Below, piece by piece: positions 14,671 through 22,353 of a stretch of DNA of 64,000 nucleotides (position 1 is its first letter; each line of letters begins with the position of its first letter). The position numbers and the translations under genes were made by a program. This DNA is from Flavobacterium sp. ASW18X (GTDB taxonomy: Bacteria; Bacteroidota; Bacteroidia; Flavobacteriales; Flavobacteriaceae), in the NCBI RefSeq assembly GCF_005144745.1, contig NZ_SWKK01000015.1, positions 1-64,000 on the forward strand, read 5' to 3'. The notes under the pieces are model-generated. The model searched no databases and had not been told where the DNA came from. It saw nothing but the letters and a program-made list of their open reading frames with translations.

Positions 14671-14693
14671 TTATTTAGACTTATTATAAATAA
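14671..14693. promoter_or_regulatory. Fur-like dyad, copy 1 (upstream of the DUF6686-like gene)
   Basis: A 23-base near-palindrome TTATTTA-N9-TAAATAA. The 30-base stretch 14667-14696 is identical at 29 positions to 22327-22356, upstream of the iron operon. Here it overlaps the -33 region of the promoter whose -7 box is TATATTTG at 14698-14705, a position suited to repression. That the binding protein is Fur is inference from the neighbouring iron genes. Confidence 0.6.
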
Positions 14694-14727: not shown

Positions 14728-15078
14728 ATGAAATGTCCTTCTTTACAAATACTTAATACAACAGCACACGGCAGATTTACGTATTGCCATAACAGCAAGC
14801 TTTTTCAATTTGTGTTTAATAATTTGTGTTTTGAATTGTATGAGTGGGAATTACGTACGTTTATTGAGTATTTATATGATATAGATGTATTGTATTGGGA
14901 ACAACAGTTGCAAGCCTATCCACATGATAGAAAAATACCTATCTCTGTGGGTAAGAGTCATTTTATTATTTTAATGAAACGAACGGAAATCCTTGAACTC
15001 AAGGAACTTCTTTCTCCTGCTCCAAAACATCGTATACTTACATCTCAAGAAATAGATTATTCTTTAGAATACAACTAA
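14728..15078 (+). CDS. Small conserved protein, DUF6686-like
   Basis: A 116-residue cytosolic protein without signal peptide. The layout (HGRFTYCHNSKLFQFVFNNLCFELYEWELRTFIEYL at the N-terminus, then KIPISVGKSHFIILMKRTEILELKELL) fits the small flavobacterial family catalogued, as I recall it, as DUF6686. No function is known. A Fur-like dyad sits on its promoter, and the identical dyad controls the nearby iron-uptake operon, so an iron-responsive role is plausible. The gene is monocistronic, ended by the hairpin at 15105-15135. Confidence 0.65.
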   Translation: MKCPSLQILNTTAHGRFTYCHNSKLFQFVFNNLCFELYEWELRTFIEYLYDIDVLYWEQQLQAYPHDRKIPISVGKSHFIILMKRTEILELKELLSPAPKHRILTSQEIDYSLEYN

Positions 15079-15237: not shown

Positions 15238-15483
15238 ATGCCTATAAGATTAGCAAATAATTGCGTTAACTGTACCAATTACCAAAATGACCATACCTGT
15301 ACACAACACCATACTAAAGTTACGGAAAGACACACGTGTGATAGTTTTAATATGCAACAAGCGCTAAAGATGAATATGACCTGCGGTACATGCTCAAGAT
15401 TTAATACGCCATCCTGTGCACACCCTGCAAAAGCAGCTCCAGAGATGAGTTGCTCCAGTTGGGCACCACAAGCAATGGCTTAA
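15238..15483 (+). CDS. Small tandem zinc-finger-like protein, unrecognised family
   Basis: An 81-residue protein with ten cysteines that is built from an internal duplication. Repeat 1 is C9-x2-C12-x8-C21-x2-H24-x9-C34-x2-F37. Repeat 2 is C49-x2-C52-x7-C60-x1-H62-x9-C72-x2-W75. The spacing suggests two small zinc-binding knuckles, each closed by an aromatic residue. There is no signal peptide, so it is probably cytosolic, with a possible role in nucleic-acid binding or metal sensing/storage. I do not recognise the family. It has its own promoter and a terminator shared with the iron operon on the other strand. Confidence 0.65.
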   Translation: MPIRLANNCVNCTNYQNDHTCTQHHTKVTERHTCDSFNMQQALKMNMTCGTCSRFNTPSCAHPAKAAPEMSCSSWAPQAMA

Positions 15484-15517: not shown

Positions 15518-15961
15518 TTATTTTAATTTTGTTCTGGCTTCTTTAGCCCAACTTATTAAAGTTTCTACATCTGCCTCAGACATGCTACCATGCAACCATG
15601 TATAAGAACTTTCTGGCATATGCCCTTCTTCTACTTCTTCAATTAGCTCGTCCAGTTTGTGGTCCTTTTTCTTTACCTCCCATTGAGACCAATCAGATAC
15701 GTTAAAATGCTCTTTGCCTTCTTCCACATGATTGGCAATCATGTAAGATATTGGTGCCACTTCTGCATACCAAGGGTAAATAGTATTATTGCTATGACAA
15801 TCGTAACAGTTTTGTCTTAGAATGGTTTTTACTGCTGCATTCGGCATCGTTTCTGCCTCAAATGCTGCTACAACATCGCCTTCTGCTGTATTTTTATCTG
15901 GTCTGTAAAATTGCATCGCAATAAATACAATTAAAAGTGCTAGCGCTATTTTTCTAAACAT
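15518..15961 (-). CDS. Haem-binding domain protein (CxxCH), last gene of the iron operon
   Basis: 147 residues: an N-terminal membrane anchor or uncleaved signal (about 4-18) and a c-type haem attachment motif CYDCH at 52-56, in the context RQNCYDCHSNNTIYPWYAEVAPIS. That context is diagnostic for the haem-binding domain family of Bacteroidota (Haem_bd). It should face the periplasm. It follows the TonB receptor by 11 bases and is the last gene before the terminator. A redox role, such as ferric reduction or electron transfer during iron uptake, is plausible from the context but unproven. Confidence 0.85.
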   Translation of the reverse strand: MFRKIALALLIVFIAMQFYRPDKNTAEGDVVAAFEAETMPNAAVKTILRQNCYDCHSNNTIYPWYAEVAPISYMIANHVEEGKEHFNVSDWSQWEVKKKDHKLDELIEEVEEGHMPESSYTWLHGSMSEADVETLISWAKEARTKLK

Positions 15962-15972
15962 GATTGGTTATT

Positions 15973-18444
15973 TTAAATTTTGATTTGCAAGGTAGTATAA
16001 AATGTTCTGGGTTCTGCTGGGATAATCCCTGGCCCTGGATAACCTGTTGCCCTACGGGTAAAATAAGTAGTATCTAAAACGTTGTTAATACCCGCTTCTA
16101 TCTTATATCTTTTGTAGGTATAGGACAAAGAAAAATCTAATATATCGTATGCTGGAATAGCCCCTTCTATCCCTCTTTGATTATCTGTTCTATCTTGTTC
16201 CGCATTGGTGGCATCTGTAAACTGTTGCTCTAAATAGGTGTATTGCAAACTCCCTAATAAGTTGCCATAACCAAAGCTTAGCCCTGTTTTTAAATTCACA
16301 TCTGGAATAAATTCTACTTCATTGCCCTCAACCCCTACTCTTTCGGAATTTGTATACTCCGAAGCTGTTAAAGCCATGTTGGCAAAATAGTTAAGCTTTA
16401 TTTTATCCGATTTAAAATTAAGCAACGACTTTAAATTTACATCTGCAAAAGTCTCTAAACCATAGATAAAAGCAGTACCAATATTACCTCTTTTACGGAC
16501 GATACGGCCTGTTGGCACTTCTTGGCCTTGTGAGTTGGTACGTGTCTCTTCTTCTAGTATTTCTCCTAACCGGTCATCATAATACAAGCCAAAAATACTA
16601 GCATCGTAAGATAAAACATCTGATATTCTACCACGTGCACCAAAATCTGCGGTAAAACCAGACTCATCACTTATGTTTGGGTCAATCTGAAAGCTTGGAT
16701 TTACGACTCTAATATCACTAAAAGTGATAGACCTATAGTTCTCTGAAAAATTACCATAGAATTCTAAATTGCTAATGGGTTTATAGGAGAGTCCTAGTCC
16801 TAACAAGAAGAAATTACGTTCAAAATTTCTATCATCGGCAATTTCCTCATTTAGTATGGTATTGCCCGCTAAGTCTTTTACAATATTTTTATACGTTCCA
16901 CTGCTTTTGGTATTAATATACTCCCACCTAAAACCAGGTGTAACAGAAAACTTGTCGTTTAGATTAAAAATATGTTCGCCAAAAACTGCAAAATTTAGAT
17001 TAGGAAAGGTAAAACTTGATTGTCTTTCATAATCTGGAAAATCCGTTGTTGCAAAATTAAAATCAGCATTTGCCGCTGCAGAGCCAGGACCTTGTTGTTG
17101 CTCGTTGTAAGTTTGGTAATACTTAACGCCCAATAAGGCTATTGCATCTTTATCTTGTATTTTATATCTGTGTAACACCCGAGCCTCGGCGCCAATATTG
17201 CTAAAATCATCTACCAACAATTCTCTTGGTTCTTCTGGGTCATCTGGCTGGCTTACCCTATTCGTCCTAAAACCGAGTGCACTACGCGATGCCTGCAAAC
17301 CTGTAAGACTTAGGCTAAAATCTGTTTGTACAGAAAAGCTATGTTCTAGTTTTAAGTTGTATAATTTCCAGTCAATATCAAACCAGTTTCTTTCTCTATT
17401 ACTAAAAGTTGGATCTTCTATAAATTGTGCATCGGTAAGGCCGCCAGGTTGTTGGGCCAGATAATCCAATAGCGTAACCTCTCCACTTAACTTTGTTTTA
17501 TCTGACAGTTGATATCCAATATGTGTATGAAAATTGCGACTACTAAAATCAGAATTGGGCCTAAAACTACTTCCCTGTTTGTAATTAAAAAAAGTATAAT
17601 AACTTAACTCACCTGTAGTACCGGATAAACTATTGAAGCTGGTAAATAAATCATAAGAACCTACGGTTTGCCTAGAAATCAATTCTATTTTTTTTGTAGG
17701 ATTCGGTTTCTTAAACACAAAATTTATAAGACCTCCAAACTGCGGACCATATTGCAAAGAAGCAGCACCACGTACCACTTGTATTTGCTCCAAAGCTTCC
17801 GCTGGTGGGCTGTAATAACTTTCTGGATAACCAAGGGCGTCCGCACTAATATCATACCCGTTTTGCCTCGTATTAAAATTAGCCGAACGGTTGGGGTCTA
17901 AACCTCTACCCCCAATATTTAATTGCAGACCTGCATCGCCATAATCAAAAATATTGAGCCCAACCACTTGGTTGTAAATTTGCCGCGGATTATTGGCTGC
18001 TAAATTGCCTACCAAGTTATCCATCAATACCACTTCACTCTTTTTACCCGCATAGATAGCGGTACCTTCTACGGTTTTTAGTTTTTGTAAGGCGAAAACT
18101 TTTTCCCGTTGTCGGGATAACACCACTTCTGACAATTGTTGTGCCTGTAATGGTCTTAAAGTAATGTCTACCGAAAAAGGCTGGTCAAAGGTTAGTTCCT
18201 TCTCATACACCTCGTATTCCAAAGAAAACACCAGAATGGTATATTTACCTACAGGTATATCTGTAAAAACAAATGTGCCTTTGTCATCTGTTGTCTGCAA
18301 TTCTTGTAACTCTTTTAAATACACCTCTGCATCTGCAATAGTTGCCCCTTCTTGGTTTTTTACGGTACCTGTTATAGTCAACTGTGCCCAAGTAGTAGTA
18401 GCGATAAAAAGTGCAAATAGTGTATTAAATACCTGTAATCTCAT
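15973..18444 (-). CDS. TonB-dependent receptor, FecA-like, with N-terminal carboxypeptidase-regulatory-like domain
   Basis: An 823-residue outer-membrane importer. In order: signal peptide 1-20 (ends TWAQ), CarboxypepD_reg-like beta domain (about 21-105, ITGTVKNQEGATIADAEVYL), plug domain (about 110-235, with NPRQIYNQVVGLNIFDYGDAGLQLNIGGRGLDP read in pieces and QIQVVRGAASLQYGP), then the 22-strand barrel ending in an aromatic-rich strand (FYTTLQIKI). The plug resembles ferric-dicitrate receptors. Its first 20 bases overlap the end of the HTTM gene, so translation is probably coupled. The substrate is inferred to be an iron chelate from the neighbours. Confidence 0.92.
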   Translation of the reverse strand: MRLQVFNTLFALFIATTTWAQLTITGTVKNQEGATIADAEVYLKELQELQTTDDKGTFVFTDIPVGKYTILVFSLEYEVYEKELTFDQPFSVDITLRPLQAQQLSEVVLSRQREKVFALQKLKTVEGTAIYAGKKSEVVLMDNLVGNLAANNPRQIYNQVVGLNIFDYGDAGLQLNIGGRGLDPNRSANFNTRQNGYDISADALGYPESYYSPPAEALEQIQVVRGAASLQYGPQFGGLINFVFKKPNPTKKIELISRQTVGSYDLFTSFNSLSGTTGELSYYTFFNYKQGSSFRPNSDFSSRNFHTHIGYQLSDKTKLSGEVTLLDYLAQQPGGLTDAQFIEDPTFSNRERNWFDIDWKLYNLKLEHSFSVQTDFSLSLTGLQASRSALGFRTNRVSQPDDPEEPRELLVDDFSNIGAEARVLHRYKIQDKDAIALLGVKYYQTYNEQQQGPGSAAANADFNFATTDFPDYERQSSFTFPNLNFAVFGEHIFNLNDKFSVTPGFRWEYINTKSSGTYKNIVKDLAGNTILNEEIADDRNFERNFFLLGLGLSYKPISNLEFYGNFSENYRSITFSDIRVVNPSFQIDPNISDESGFTADFGARGRISDVLSYDASIFGLYYDDRLGEILEEETRTNSQGQEVPTGRIVRKRGNIGTAFIYGLETFADVNLKSLLNFKSDKIKLNYFANMALTASEYTNSERVGVEGNEVEFIPDVNLKTGLSFGYGNLLGSLQYTYLEQQFTDATNAEQDRTDNQRGIEGAIPAYDILDFSLSYTYKRYKIEAGINNVLDTTYFTRRATGYPGPGIIPAEPRTFYTTLQIKI

Positions 18445-19789
18445 CTTTAAAAGGTAATATCCAGTTTTTAGGTTTGAATGATTCTTTTTCTTGGGTCAAG
18501 TCGACTTTTGGATTGATGTAAGGTTGACTTAACCTACCATTTAGCGCCACATAACTTTCTACATAAATGGCGATGTTTTTATGTCCTTGGGCCGTAAAAT
18601 GTTGCTTTAAGTAATGTGCATATTCTAGAATGAAGTCCGGTTGAAAACTCATCTGTTTTTCTTGAAATGTGGTCAAAAAGTCCGAATTATCCACATAAAA
18701 TTGTTTGCCGGTTTTGGTATCTACCACCTTAAACTGCGCGTAACCCGATTTTTCCATCAGCATTACCCGCCATGAAAAACGATACCCTTCTTCTGTCCAA
18801 AACAATTCGCCCGGATACAAAAGGTAACGCCATGGGAATATCAATTGAAATGCCATAAAAATAACCAATACTCCAGTTGCTAATTTTGCCTTTATTCCTT
18901 TAGGTTGATATACCCTTTTATTTTGAAAAAGGGCTATGGAAACCTTAAGTTGTTTCGCAATCCATTCTATTATTTTCTGGTGAAAGCTAGCATCGAAAAA
19001 TACCAAGGCAGAAACTATCATTATGTACGGAAACATACCAATAGGAAATAATACTCGAGTTAACACATGAAAAATGACTACCATTATAAATGCGAATTTG
19101 CGCGTTGGCTTGTAAAACAGTAGAAAAGGAATAGCCAAATCATACAAAGCGCCGGTATAACTAAATACATAATGGACCCATTCTAAGCCCATAAAGTCAC
19201 CGATAAGCGGCACATCAAACTTAGAAGGCAACCAAATTTTAAGGGGTATCGCTTTAACCAACCAATCTGAATTTAGCTTTGCCAAACCCGCATAGAAATA
19301 AACAATACTCAGTAATAGTTTTAAGACTAAAATGCACCACGCTGGAATAAATTTCGCTCTCATTTTTTCACTTTTATAAGCATCCCATGAAAAATAGCGT
19401 TCCGCTGGCAAAAAGAGCATTACAAAAGCTAATACTGAAATAAAATAATAGTGGTTAAGGTAAGTAGTTTTATCCATCAGCTCTATATAAGTGAAGCTGA
19501 GAAAGAATAGCATTATTGCTAAACGGTATTTAACTCCTAAAGCAACCATTAAGGCCGTGATGGCACAAACAATGAATAACAGGTACGTAAAATTCCCCAA
19601 AGGTTTTACCCATTCAAAACCATAGTAAGTAAAATGGAAATTAGGTTCTAAATAGAGTTTTTCTATCCAGCCGTTGGCCCAAAACCTTAGAATACTTAAA
19701 AACATCATTACACCAAAAAAAATACGAAAGACCGCCAAAGGGGCGGCCTCTACAGGTTGTATTAATTTTTTTTGGAGTTGAGCAATCAT
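18425..19789 (-). CDS. HTTM / vitamin K-dependent gamma-carboxylase homologue
   Basis: A 454-residue membrane protein that resembles the animal gamma-glutamyl carboxylase along its whole length, not only in the membrane part. About seven spans occupy residues 15-320; the C-terminal 130 residues keep the counterparts of the lumenal domain (for example FSWRVMLMEKSGYAQFKV and YINPKVDLTQEKESFKPKNWILPF). Compared from memory with human GGCX, the catalytic base Lys218 corresponds to Lys171 (YAGLAKLNSDW) and His160 to His113 (YLNHYYF). The family oxidises reduced quinone and carboxylates Glu; flavobacteria contain menaquinone. The gene abuts imelysin with no gap and overlaps the receptor. The substrate protein is unknown. 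Confidence 0.88.
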   Translation of the reverse strand: MIAQLQKKLIQPVEAAPLAVFRIFFGVMMFLSILRFWANGWIEKLYLEPNFHFTYYGFEWVKPLGNFTYLLFIVCAITALMVALGVKYRLAIMLFFLSFTYIELMDKTTYLNHYYFISVLAFVMLFLPAERYFSWDAYKSEKMRAKFIPAWCILVLKLLLSIVYFYAGLAKLNSDWLVKAIPLKIWLPSKFDVPLIGDFMGLEWVHYVFSYTGALYDLAIPFLLFYKPTRKFAFIMVVIFHVLTRVLFPIGMFPYIMIVSALVFFDASFHQKIIEWIAKQLKVSIALFQNKRVYQPKGIKAKLATGVLVIFMAFQLIFPWRYLLYPGELFWTEEGYRFSWRVMLMEKSGYAQFKVVDTKTGKQFYVDNSDFLTTFQEKQMSFQPDFILEYAHYLKQHFTAQGHKNIAIYVESYVALNGRLSQPYINPKVDLTQEKESFKPKNWILPFKDEITGI

Positions 19790-20926
19790 CTAATCCCCGT
19801 CTGCATCTACAAAATCTACTGCAATACTCATGGCAGAAACCATATCTACCTTTAACATGGGCACAACCAATTGCAATTGGTCATACGCATCTGCAATACT
19901 TGCAGTATTGCTTTCTATCTCTTCTTTAAAAATACCTAAACTGTCAAAGGAATCTCTAGCGTTATCTAACTGCGTGTTAATCAAGTTTTCTAATTCCTCC
20001 CCATTTTTAACGCTATTCAAAGCCACCAAATAACTTGCCAAGCTTTCTCCCTTAGCCGAGCTTTGAAAATGATTACCATTAAAAAAATCTTGAAAAGCAT
20101 CTAAACTTGCCAATAATAAAACTTTACTGTTTTCTGGACTATAAAAAGCCTCTAACGTATTAGGAGCTGCAGTACCCGTGAATTTACCAATAGGGATACC
20201 TACTTTACCTGCCCGCAAGAATTTTTCGTAATAAAAAATAACATCGTTTACCAAGCGGTCTGTGCTAGCAGTAGCAGAAGCACCGTCATTAGTAACAAAA
20301 GTATCTCTGTATCCGCTGGTCCATTCTGTTGCCACGGTAGAAACCCTTGATTGAATATCTAACACAACAGCTTCTAAAAAATCTAAATGAGCTTGACCGG
20401 CAGTTGCATCTTGATAAACTGCAACAATTTCTGCATCTGTAGCTGCTAAACCGTTTAACAAGTAATCCATAGCAGGAAATCCTTTGGTATCACGGCTAGA
20501 AGGTAAATCGAAACCATATGTACCACTAGAAATAGCATCCTTAATGGCGGGTACATCTGTTGGGTAGATATTAATGTTTAAGCGTAGGTCATTATCCTCT
20601 GCAGGACCAATCTCGAACATAGAAATGGTTTGCCAATCTTGATAAGATGTCAACCAAGCGTTACGCAGAATCGTTAAATTTTCTATTGAAACATCTGCTT
20701 TAAAAGCGGCATTCGCAGCCACGACGGCATCAAAATTGGTATTAAAATTCGCGTAAGCAGGAATGATAATATTATCCGCCCAATTGCTCAGCATGGCACC
20801 GCGGTCAAAACTAACATTCACTGGACCATCATCTTCTTGGCTACCATCATCTGTTGCATCAGAACTACAGGCCCAAACTAAGAACGAAGTAAGCACTACT
20901 CCTAAAATCCAAATCTTCCCTTTCAT
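19790..20926 (-). CDS. Imelysin-like (M75) lipoprotein of the iron operon
   Basis: A 378-residue lipoprotein with the cleavage Cys at residue 20 (FLVWACSSD), followed by an acidic stretch that could act as a surface-export signal in Bacteroidota. The imelysin domain spans about 45-370. SMFEIGPAEDNDLRLNI and TKGFPAMDYLLNG mark the two conserved helices. The family motif GxHxxE appears here as GFPAMD, so its His and Glu are replaced and peptidase activity is unlikely; an iron- or chelate-binding role fits better. The stop codon directly precedes the HTTM start. Confidence 0.88.
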   Translation of the reverse strand: MKGKIWILGVVLTSFLVWACSSDATDDGSQEDDGPVNVSFDRGAMLSNWADNIIIPAYANFNTNFDAVVAANAAFKADVSIENLTILRNAWLTSYQDWQTISMFEIGPAEDNDLRLNINIYPTDVPAIKDAISSGTYGFDLPSSRDTKGFPAMDYLLNGLAATDAEIVAVYQDATAGQAHLDFLEAVVLDIQSRVSTVATEWTSGYRDTFVTNDGASATASTDRLVNDVIFYYEKFLRAGKVGIPIGKFTGTAAPNTLEAFYSPENSKVLLLASLDAFQDFFNGNHFQSSAKGESLASYLVALNSVKNGEELENLINTQLDNARDSFDSLGIFKEEIESNTASIADAYDQLQLVVPMLKVDMVSAMSIAVDFVDADGD

Positions 20927-21033: not shown

Positions 21034-22257
21034 TTAATTAGCAGCCTCCTCTAAGGTAAAACTGAAGGCATTTGCAATAGTTTCTGACAAGGCATCCAAA
21101 GTTTCTGGAGTAACATCCCATAAACCGTTAGTACCATCGCCTAAAAGTTGCGCTAACATTTCATCTACCTGCTCTTTATTAAAGTAAGGCGATTGCTTGC
21201 TAGTATCTCTAGTAAATTGCAAACTGTAAACAAAACCATAGCCTTCTGACAAATCATGAAATACGGTTCCGTAAGCAGGAGAATCCTTTTCCAATTCTAA
21301 TTTTGCCTGTTGTAGATAATAAACCGCTCTTACACCTATGATAGTAGATATTTTATCTTGAATAAGTTCTGCTTGTTGATCCCGTACGGTATATTGCTTG
21401 GCAACAATGGCAGCTCTACCCAATTTAAAAGCTTGAAAAATATCATCTGCAATACCGGCAAAATCTTCATCACCCTCTACTCTACCCAAGTATTTATTTA
21501 AAAAATTATCTGCTCCTAAATCTGCGTTAGGATTAGCCGCGTCTGCATTTTGGCCAAATACATAACCGTAAGCCTCATCCCATTTGTGCTCCATAGTGGT
21601 ATAGTTTTTACCATCTTCAGTAATGCCTGCACCGTTATTATCTGGGTTATCACCAGCATCCAACACAGCCGTACTTAAATAATTATTAATGGCTTGGTCT
21701 ACCATTAAAGCCCCAATTAAAGATTTGTTGAACAGTTGATTCATCTCTAAGCCTTGGGCATTTACATATCTGGTAGAAGAACCATCTGCTAGTTGCCCCG
21801 CTACGCCAGCAGTAGCAACTGAATTCCAATTAGGAAACACCTCTTCTACCTGTACCTGTAACCAAGAGTTAAAGTCTGCTCTAATTTCATTTTGTTCAGC
21901 GGTATTAGCAGCGAAATAATCTACAGATGCTGCAGTTTTAGTTATTAAGTTCTTATCCGATGCATTTAAATCTGCATCAGTAAAATCTGCTGCACCTTCT
22001 TCGTGCGCATACATAGCCTGTAATGCGTCTAAGGTAGATGTTGGGTCCATCATCTTAGCCAAAAGCTCATCTCCCATATCTAATCTTGTGGTTTGGCCAG
22101 AAAAAGAAACCGTGGACTCACCATCTCTTTTAAAAGTATAGGAGGCTGGATTTTCAATTTGTATTTCATCAATTATAACATCATCACCATCGTCGTCTAA
22201 AGAACAGGATGTAAAAGCTGATAATCCTACAACTACTGGAAGAATCTTTCTAATCAT
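21034..22257 (-). CDS. DUF4856 lipoprotein, first gene of the iron operon
   Basis: A 407-residue lipoprotein with the lipid-attachment Cys at residue 18 (AFTSCSLDDDGDD). The run of Asp after the Cys resembles the surface-export signal of Bacteroidota lipoproteins. The start of the domain, NPASYTFKRDGESTVSFSGQTTRLDM, is characteristic of DUF4856, and the rest is helical and Asp/Glu-rich. The function is unknown; DUF4856 genes commonly occur with imelysin and TonB receptors in flavobacteria. It is read from a very good promoter carrying a Fur-like dyad. A role as a surface-exposed iron- or chelate-binding protein is inference. Confidence 0.85.
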   Translation of the reverse strand: MIRKILPVVVGLSAFTSCSLDDDGDDVIIDEIQIENPASYTFKRDGESTVSFSGQTTRLDMGDELLAKMMDPTSTLDALQAMYAHEEGAADFTDADLNASDKNLITKTAASVDYFAANTAEQNEIRADFNSWLQVQVEEVFPNWNSVATAGVAGQLADGSSTRYVNAQGLEMNQLFNKSLIGALMVDQAINNYLSTAVLDAGDNPDNNGAGITEDGKNYTTMEHKWDEAYGYVFGQNADAANPNADLGADNFLNKYLGRVEGDEDFAGIADDIFQAFKLGRAAIVAKQYTVRDQQAELIQDKISTIIGVRAVYYLQQAKLELEKDSPAYGTVFHDLSEGYGFVYSLQFTRDTSKQSPYFNKEQVDEMLAQLLGDGTNGLWDVTPETLDALSETIANAFSFTLEEAAN

Positions 22258-22330: not shown

Positions 22331-22353
22331 TTATTTAGACTTATTGTAAATAA
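22331..22353. promoter_or_regulatory. Fur-like dyad, copy 2 (iron operon promoter)
   Basis: TTATTTA-N9-TAAATAA apart from one base (G for A at the inner edge of the right arm), 29 of 30 identical to the 14667-14696 copy over its full length. It lies directly upstream of the -33 element. Iron-responsive control is inferred. Confidence 0.6.

Follow-up and report, generated by a model that had tools for sequence, protein, structure and literature searches.

The vitamin K-dependent gamma-carboxylase (VKGC) homologue considered here is encoded in a 64,000-nucleotide stretch of Flavobacterium sp. ASW18X (contig NZ_SWKK01000015.1, positions 1 to 64,000; hereafter the window), where it shares a gene cassette with a DUF4856 lipoprotein, an imelysin lipoprotein and a TonB-dependent receptor. 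Among relatives of this cassette, VKGC alternates with a fatty-acid hydroxylase (FAH), a pattern that is new here and is seen across 378 genomes of the family and in a tree of 67 receptors. We tentatively propose that a working GGCX-type enzyme, as predicted here, carries out the modifying step in a cassette for iron uptake under iron starvation and that its target is more likely lipid-like than a gamma-carboxyglutamate (Gla) domain, a reading that we regard as quite possible, if still short of probable.

The alternation emerges from cassettes that lack VKGC. Two of these, L138 (genome G012) and L139 (G026), carry an FAH (PF04116; 84.5 bits in both cases, with 47% identity between the two). 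In L139, as in L176, it fills the slot of VKGC, with imelysin on one side and the receptor on the other; no relative of it was found by blastp (E <= 1e-3) among the open reading frames (ORFs) of the L033–L100 stretches examined. One draw of 378 family genomes was searched for imelysin, VKGC and FAH. The cassette imelysin (E <= 1e-28) occurs in 123 genomes, 118 of which also have VKGC (E <= 1e-100), and the five that do not (G012, G026, G357, G551 and G573, from three genera) are exactly the five with this FAH clade (E <= 1e-50), i.e., FAH is found in 5/5 VKGC-less cassette genomes vs 0/373 others (Fisher p 1.6e-11, kinship ignored). The test was suggested by G012 and G026, and the imelysin line was set after the lists had been viewed; the five genomes do not change wherever the line is drawn between 1e-31 and 1e-18. 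In G026 FAH occupies the slot, whereas G012 and G551 have it adjoining the cassette. Nine further family genomes with weak imelysin matches and no VKGC hold ten M75 matches (two of them L106 and L121 of G013), none of which ends in the DGD tail of the cassette imelysins, and these therefore look like classical imelysins rather than exceptions to the pattern.

For a wider check, genome contigs were scanned with five hydroxylases and the best 80 loci were kept. DUF4856 is present in 45 of these, within 10 kb of FAH and in both Bacteroidota and Pseudomonadota, and 42 hold DUF4856 together with an imelysin (60 bits or more). The loci include Flavicella, a Polaribacter metagenome-assembled genome (MAG), Crocinitomix MAGs and 14 gammaproteobacterial loci (Pseudoalteromonas, Colwellia, Aliikangiella, Parashewanella and others), in which the order is DUF4856, imelysin, receptor, hydroxylase; with DUF4856 at 49–106 bits and the receptor at 47–76 bits, the gammaproteobacterial proteins are distant relatives of those in the window, and their 14 imelysins end in DND. 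All 78 FAH proteins longer than 250 amino acids from the best 80 loci carry an eight-histidine motif. Whole genomes were searched for 40 of these 80 loci, which were hand-picked, have mostly closer hydroxylases and are independent of the discovery pair in 39 cases (L175 being taken as G026); an imelysin match (E <= 1e-6) was obtained in 39 of the 40, and VKGC (E <= 1e-100) was not found in 30. A tree was built, by a quick method with SH-aLRT only, from the receptors of 67 selected cassettes (43 with VKGC, 21 with FAH and 3 with both), near-duplicates, receptors truncated at a contig end and a number of further loci having been set aside before counting. On it, the VKGC label changes 7 times, at least 6 of these changes being forced by starred branches, against a shuffled mean of 20.0. 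In two MAG loci, L187 and L234, FAH, several imelysins, DUF4856 and a receptor occur together, and both of the imelysin settings described below are mixed.

The VKGC gene itself (18425–19789, minus strand) is a real ORF of 454 amino acids, as the earlier note held in describing its product as a GGCX homologue, and comprises an HTTM membrane domain and a lumenal, here periplasm-side, domain. Pfam HTTM (PF05090) covers residues 11–267 with 270.5 bits and VKGC_lumenal (PF22777) residues 302–450 with 216.5 bits, both far above the cut-off of 27.7. Human GGCX aligns to residues 9–448 (E 1.6e-50), and this match stops at about residue 508 of the 758 in the human enzyme, so that VKGC lacks the arch and what remains of the propeptide-binding domain; the idea that the C-terminal domain of GGCX had been kept thus stands for the first lumenal part, and fails for the propeptide-binding domain beyond about residue 508 and for the arch. 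An overlay on GGCX, which had been put forward as a check, bears out the homology: the AlphaFold2 model (alignment of 55 sequences; mean pLDDT 95.4, pTM 0.92) superposes on the human structure 9wfc_A with Z 34.2 and a root-mean-square deviation of 2.9 A over 438 residues (VIA-align), and 16 GGCX rows score Z 23.1–34.2, compared with Z 8.2 for the best non-GGCX row.

In the active-site description of PMC12589487, the base of human GGCX is Lys218, Glu is held by Asn159, His160 and Tyr395, the quinone is held by Phe286, Phe294, Phe299, His160, Val210, Met401 and Trp223, and substrate binding is influenced by Lys217 and Arg436. Both the pairwise alignment with GGCX and a MAFFT alignment place Lys171 (codon 19277–19279, minus strand) at Lys218 and His113 (codon 19451–19453, minus strand) at His160, in agreement with the earlier note, so that the misaligned lysine it had named as a way for its idea to fail was not found. 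The Glu-holding trio is fully matched (Asn159 by Asn112, His160 by His113 and Tyr395 by Tyr336), and Phe286, Phe294, Phe299, Val210 and Trp223 of the quinone pocket have their counterparts in Phe240, Phe248, Phe253, Val163 and Trp176; with Met401 replaced by Val342, five of the six residues of the vitamin K pocket (Phe286, Phe294, Phe299, Trp223, Val210 and Met401) are identical.

Conservation was counted in a 68-row MAFFT alignment containing 67 VKGC copies of more than 400 amino acids, the window copy included, in which three genomes are counted twice (L053/L097, L055/L076 and L059/L069). Proteins of 400 amino acids or less are omitted, as with the split genes of L048 (7259–8645, the other cassette genes intact) and L092 (7028–8476), in each of which the VKGC frame falls into two ORFs. 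Lys218, Trp223, Phe294 and Phe299 are kept in all 67 rows, and His160, Asn159 and Phe286 in 66; the Glu pocket is accordingly retained in 66/67 copies, whereas a loss of the active site among orthologues had been named as evidence against the carboxylase idea. The position of human Tyr395 holds Tyr in 45 rows, Phe in 13 and His in 9, the last being the rows from other paralogue clades. The sole row that lost Asn159 and His160 is L045 of G024, the only genome in the family draw with this VKGC but no imelysin match (E <= 1e-6). Other GGCX residues are changed: Lys217 is Ala in 67/67 rows (Ala170 in the window), Cys99 is Phe in 67/67, Arg436 is Gln in 46 (Gln379 in the window), and neither Cys450, of the Cys99–Cys450 pair, nor His404 is conserved. 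As Lys217 and Arg436 are not kept, substrate recognition should differ from that of human GGCX.

From its promoter, and entirely on the minus strand, the cassette of the window reads DUF4856 (21034–22257, 407 amino acids; PF16148, 484 bits), imelysin (Peptidase_M75; 19790–20926, 378 amino acids; PF09375, 100.2 bits), VKGC, TonB-dependent receptor (15973–18444, 823 amino acids; PF00593, PF07715 and PF13715) and a haem-binding-domain protein (15518–15961, 147 amino acids; PF14376), which is the final cassette gene in only some relatives. Imelysin and VKGC are separated by 0 bases and the receptor overlaps VKGC by 20 bases, and the tight coupling described in the earlier note is thereby borne out. 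Its label of a FecA-like receptor is sound as regards a TonB-dependent receptor and loose as regards FecA, the score on NCBIfam FecA being 79.5 bits vs a cut-off of 1100; on TIGR01783 the receptor reaches 113.9 bits vs 223.5.

The neighbourhood survey of HTTM–imelysin–TonB operons that had been suggested as a further check reveals a recurrent cassette in many Bacteroidota. Among near relatives, a VKGC match (E <= 0.001) occurs in 39/60 genomes, of which 17 have an orthologue of at least 47% identity and 22 distant paralogues only; genome draws centred on the window count its own genome, which is among the 17 and has an additional distant VKGC paralogue on contig C14. Across the phylum, 69/296 genomes give a match at E <= 1e-40. 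The order imelysin–VKGC–receptor is found at 14/16 orthologue loci (L033–L048) and at 33/40 further loci (L061–L100) hand-picked from the phylum and family matches, L048 being counted despite its split VKGC and L086 despite a weak receptor of 59 bits. Exceptions are L045, which is solo with its pocket lost, L094, which is solo with its pocket kept, L047, which has imelysin and DHOR without a receptor, L100, which is a second paralogue, and the distant loci L081, L091, L092, L093 and L095. At all 47 loci for which distances were taken, an imelysin gene lies immediately upstream of VKGC, and the receptor ORF overlaps VKGC in 42/47 (first start codon taken); imelysin is not directly upstream in L045, L094 and the Tenacibaculum loci that carry both enzymes. 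DUF4856 is present in 50/296 phylum genomes, 46 of them with VKGC at E <= 1e-100. The other four (G286, G325, G166 and G185) have neither a cassette imelysin nor an FAH relative in the stretches examined, and hence have no bearing on the swap between VKGC and FAH.

A second VKGC setting, without a receptor, consists of imelysin, a DHOR-type gene, imelysin and VKGC (L047, L155, L156, L157 and L165), DHOR being identified by Pfam in L047 and L147. Also observed were a lone second DUF4856 in G026 (L140) and a tandem pair of DUF4856 genes ahead of imelysin in G282 (L145, 4063–6868). The second VKGC paralogue (L049, L050–L052 and L100) is about 36% identical, keeps the pocket and has His at the Tyr395 position; it adjoins what we take, from the look of the sequence, to be a ribF-like gene (start TIGTFDGVHIGH), with a presumably serS-like gene nearby.

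Iron regulation of the cassette is suggested by a 19-base Fur-like box at 22333–22351, 75 bases before the DUF4856 start codon and with 2 mismatches to the published Riemerella consensus, so the Fur-like site that had been noticed ahead of the operon is indeed there. The window contains such boxes in only two places, giving 4 strand matches, whereas shuffled sequences gave a mean of 0.30 and 0/100 reached 4. When the stretch from 250 bases before to 30 bases after the called start of DUF4856 was searched, 30/34 cassettes had a box with no more than 4 mismatches, the exceptions being L044, L048, L139 and L145. The other box of the window (14673–14691) is just upstream of a DUF6686 gene (14728–15078), a gene that also lies beside the cassette in L033–L036; between it and the cassette there is a gene for a cysteine-rich protein of 81 amino acids (15238–15483, plus strand). 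Expression data come from Riemerella anatipestifer, in which Table 4 of PMC5609570 lists, under the successive tags RAYM_09779–09794, a TonB receptor, a 'vitamin K-dependent gamma-carboxylase', an imelysin and a hypothetical protein. This row matches the four-gene makeup of the cassette and is iron-responsive, although its fourth gene is given only as 'hypothetical' and is not identified as DUF4856. Without iron, the four genes rise 2.11-, 2.64-, 3.07- and 2.41-fold from receptor to hypothetical, according to the same table data (PMC5609570), and in the fur mutant with iron the derepression of the row is only 1.36–1.93 (PMC5609570). The iron response of the Riemerella row is thus shown, and its control by Fur weakly.

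The substrate proposed in the earlier note, namely Glu residues carboxylated to Gla on the DUF4856 or imelysin lipoprotein, did not find support in the partner proteins. Among 47–48 VKGC and 22–23 FAH sequences per protein, the rows being related and partners under set bit scores being omitted, no column of DUF4856, imelysin or the receptor has Glu in at least 60% of the sequences that go with VKGC but in no more than 40% of those that go with FAH. Four contrasting columns (imelysin 105 and 294; receptor 343 and 406) show the opposite, Glu being more frequent alongside FAH; Glu171 and Glu338 of DUF4856 and Glu234 and Glu259 of imelysin are common to both groups and may still be candidates. A true menaquinol-dependent gamma-carboxylase that adds metal ligands to the imelysin, the DUF4856 lipoprotein or the receptor nevertheless has points in its favor: Asn112, His113 and Tyr336 match the Glu-holding residues of GGCX, with Tyr or Phe at position 395 in 58/67 rows, imelysin is the direct upstream neighbor of VKGC in the 47 loci measured, and both lipoprotein partners look exported. 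Set against these are the Glu columns just described, the replacement of Arg436 and Lys217 and the loss of the human part past about residue 508; moreover, that a non-homologous FAH can stand in for VKGC is not predicted by a Gla-specific role, and overall we consider such a carboxylase rather unlikely. The imelysin DGD tail was also entertained as a substrate tag of VKGC and rejected, because it occurs as well on imelysins that are not beside VKGC (L118/L138, L128/L139, L124 and L127, and also PDB 3PF0).

Two other explanations dispense with a shared modification altogether, and both appear improbable to us. VKGC might be a quinol:O2 device that has no protein or lipid target and epoxidises menaquinol, thereby lowering O2 or moving electrons near the importer; GGCX does epoxidise quinone, the quinone pocket is well kept, and iron importers may profit from low O2. 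Yet the Glu pocket is as conserved as the quinone pocket, being lost only in the G024 copy among the 67 rows, and FAH is, to our knowledge, no quinol oxidase. Alternatively, FAH could be a bystander brought near the cassette by neighborhoods in mostly marine bacteria, with the loss of VKGC unrelated. This would fit the genomes G357 and G573, in which FAH lies on a different contig from the cassette, the 35 of the best 80 FAH loci without a visible cassette gene, and the 10/40 FAH genomes that have both enzymes. The five-for-five correspondence in one draw, in which G357, G551 and G573 were not known when the queries were chosen, speaks against it, as do the repeated, separate switches in the receptor tree and the proximity of FAH to DUF4856 in two phyla.

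We return to a modifying step with a lipid-like target. VKGC in the inner membrane would oxidise menaquinol with O2, whereupon a strong base would arise at Lys171, reach His113 and Asn112 on the periplasmic side and activate a target needed by the imelysin, DUF4856 and receptor system. Its identity is a guess, with a lipophilic carrier of iron, a quinone and a lipid-borne moiety of the lipoproteins as candidates. Known fatty-acid hydroxylases act on lipids, and because a lipid-acting class can replace VKGC, we consider a lipid-like target likelier than a Gla domain. As a rule the cassette is accompanied by one or the other of two unrelated membrane enzymes, both from O2-using classes, and at times by both; the VKGC step thus seems to belong to the iron system and not to be a mere passenger, and its job should be one of which either enzyme is capable. 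FAH uses iron, and VKGC chemistry as known uses no metal; VKGC would thus be a metal-free route to a step for which the hydroxylase employs iron, and the sparing choice under iron starvation. In its most far-reaching form, the proposal is that vitamin K-dependent catalysis serves bacterial iron acquisition on a non-Gla target, with VKGC and an eight-histidine, di-iron type FAH standing in for each other as non-homologous, O2-dependent enzymes whose modification falls on one and the same lipid-like part of the cassette, and with VKGC as the iron-sparing one; this full version we hold to be doubtful.

Several observations weigh against the proposal. FAH is away from the cassette in G357 and G573, and 35 of the best 80 FAH loci show neither DUF4856 nor the cassette imelysin, for which short contigs are partly responsible. 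Three of the 80 (L182, L188 and L201, all Tenacibaculum) hold VKGC as well, in the order DUF4856, imelysin, FAH, receptor, VKGC. Strict exclusivity of the two enzymes was rejected on account of the ten of the 40 FAH genomes with VKGC at E <= 1e-100, the VKGCs of which all keep Lys218, Asn159 and His160; nine are 62–67% identical and one (G726) 42%. In G165, VKGC is solo (L094; 59% identical, pocket intact), and the surrounding 7 kb or so contain none of the cassette genes. From charge bias, a crude guide, the histidines of FAH look cytoplasmic, whereas the VKGC site is on the periplasm side; a shared target would on this view be easier to imagine as lipid-like. We also know of no lipid reaction of VKGC other than that on quinone. 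In Riemerella, finally, the iron response of the row persists in the fur mutant (2.70–3.07), and Table 5 of the same paper gives no Fur box for it (PMC5609570).

The partner proteins offer further detail. DUF4856 and imelysin resemble exported lipoproteins, with near-invariant Cys at positions 18 and 20; their acidic N-termini resemble the usual lipoprotein export signals of Bacteroidota, which also speaks against these acidic stretches as a carboxylation substrate. The predicted structure of DUF4856 is all-helical (pLDDT 92.8), and comparison with the PDB returned nothing at Foldseek E <= 0.001 and nothing at Z >= 8; Algp7, considered as a structural relative, was set aside at Z 4.4 as too weak to use, and no paper naming the domain was found in the literature search. 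Its near-invariant Glu171, Lys178, His334 and Glu338 have the look of a possible metal site. The window imelysin ends in DGD, and among 49 aligned imelysins (the window and VKGC loci, matches >120 bits) DGD is C-terminal in all and forms the final three residues in 48, L086 ending in DGDS; these VKGC-adjacent imelysins are otherwise widely divergent. As DGD also occurs without VKGC, the tail may serve the receptor, or else metal binding.

Compared with human GGCX, VKGC shares the fold over 438 residues and counterparts of Lys218, Asn159, His160, Trp223, Phe286, Phe294, Phe299 and Tyr395, but it has 454 residues rather than 758 and belongs to a bacterial iron operon. Bacterial VKGC/HTTM proteins (PF05090), including a Leptospira homologue, possess the same domain pair, and a 2005 study of the Leptospira carboxylase reportedly found altered activity. 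The homologue of Leptospira interrogans is presumed in PMC4555120 to have been acquired by horizontal transfer. There is also a resemblance between the LruB operon of Leptospira and the second setting (imelysin, DHOR, imelysin, VKGC). In EfeUOB and IrpA-type systems imelysin (M75) is likewise tied to iron; VKGC and DUF4856 are extra here, and no EfeU-like permease is present among the cassette genes of the window. The FA_hydroxylase superfamily (PF04116), non-homologous to VKGC and marked by its eight-histidine motif, replaces it in the same cassette, and no work joining imelysin with a fatty-acid hydroxylase was present among the literature matches listed, while a single paper brought together imelysin and a vitamin K-dependent gamma-carboxylase.

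These results link one large VKGC clade to a specific set of genes, probably under iron control, in which its partners can be named and a naturally occurring enzyme takes its place; comparing VKGC-only, hydroxylase-only and double cells or genomes should make the substrate easier to find. Should the vitamin K step prove real, this chemistry would gain a role in bacteria that is distinct from coagulation and bone, and perhaps older.

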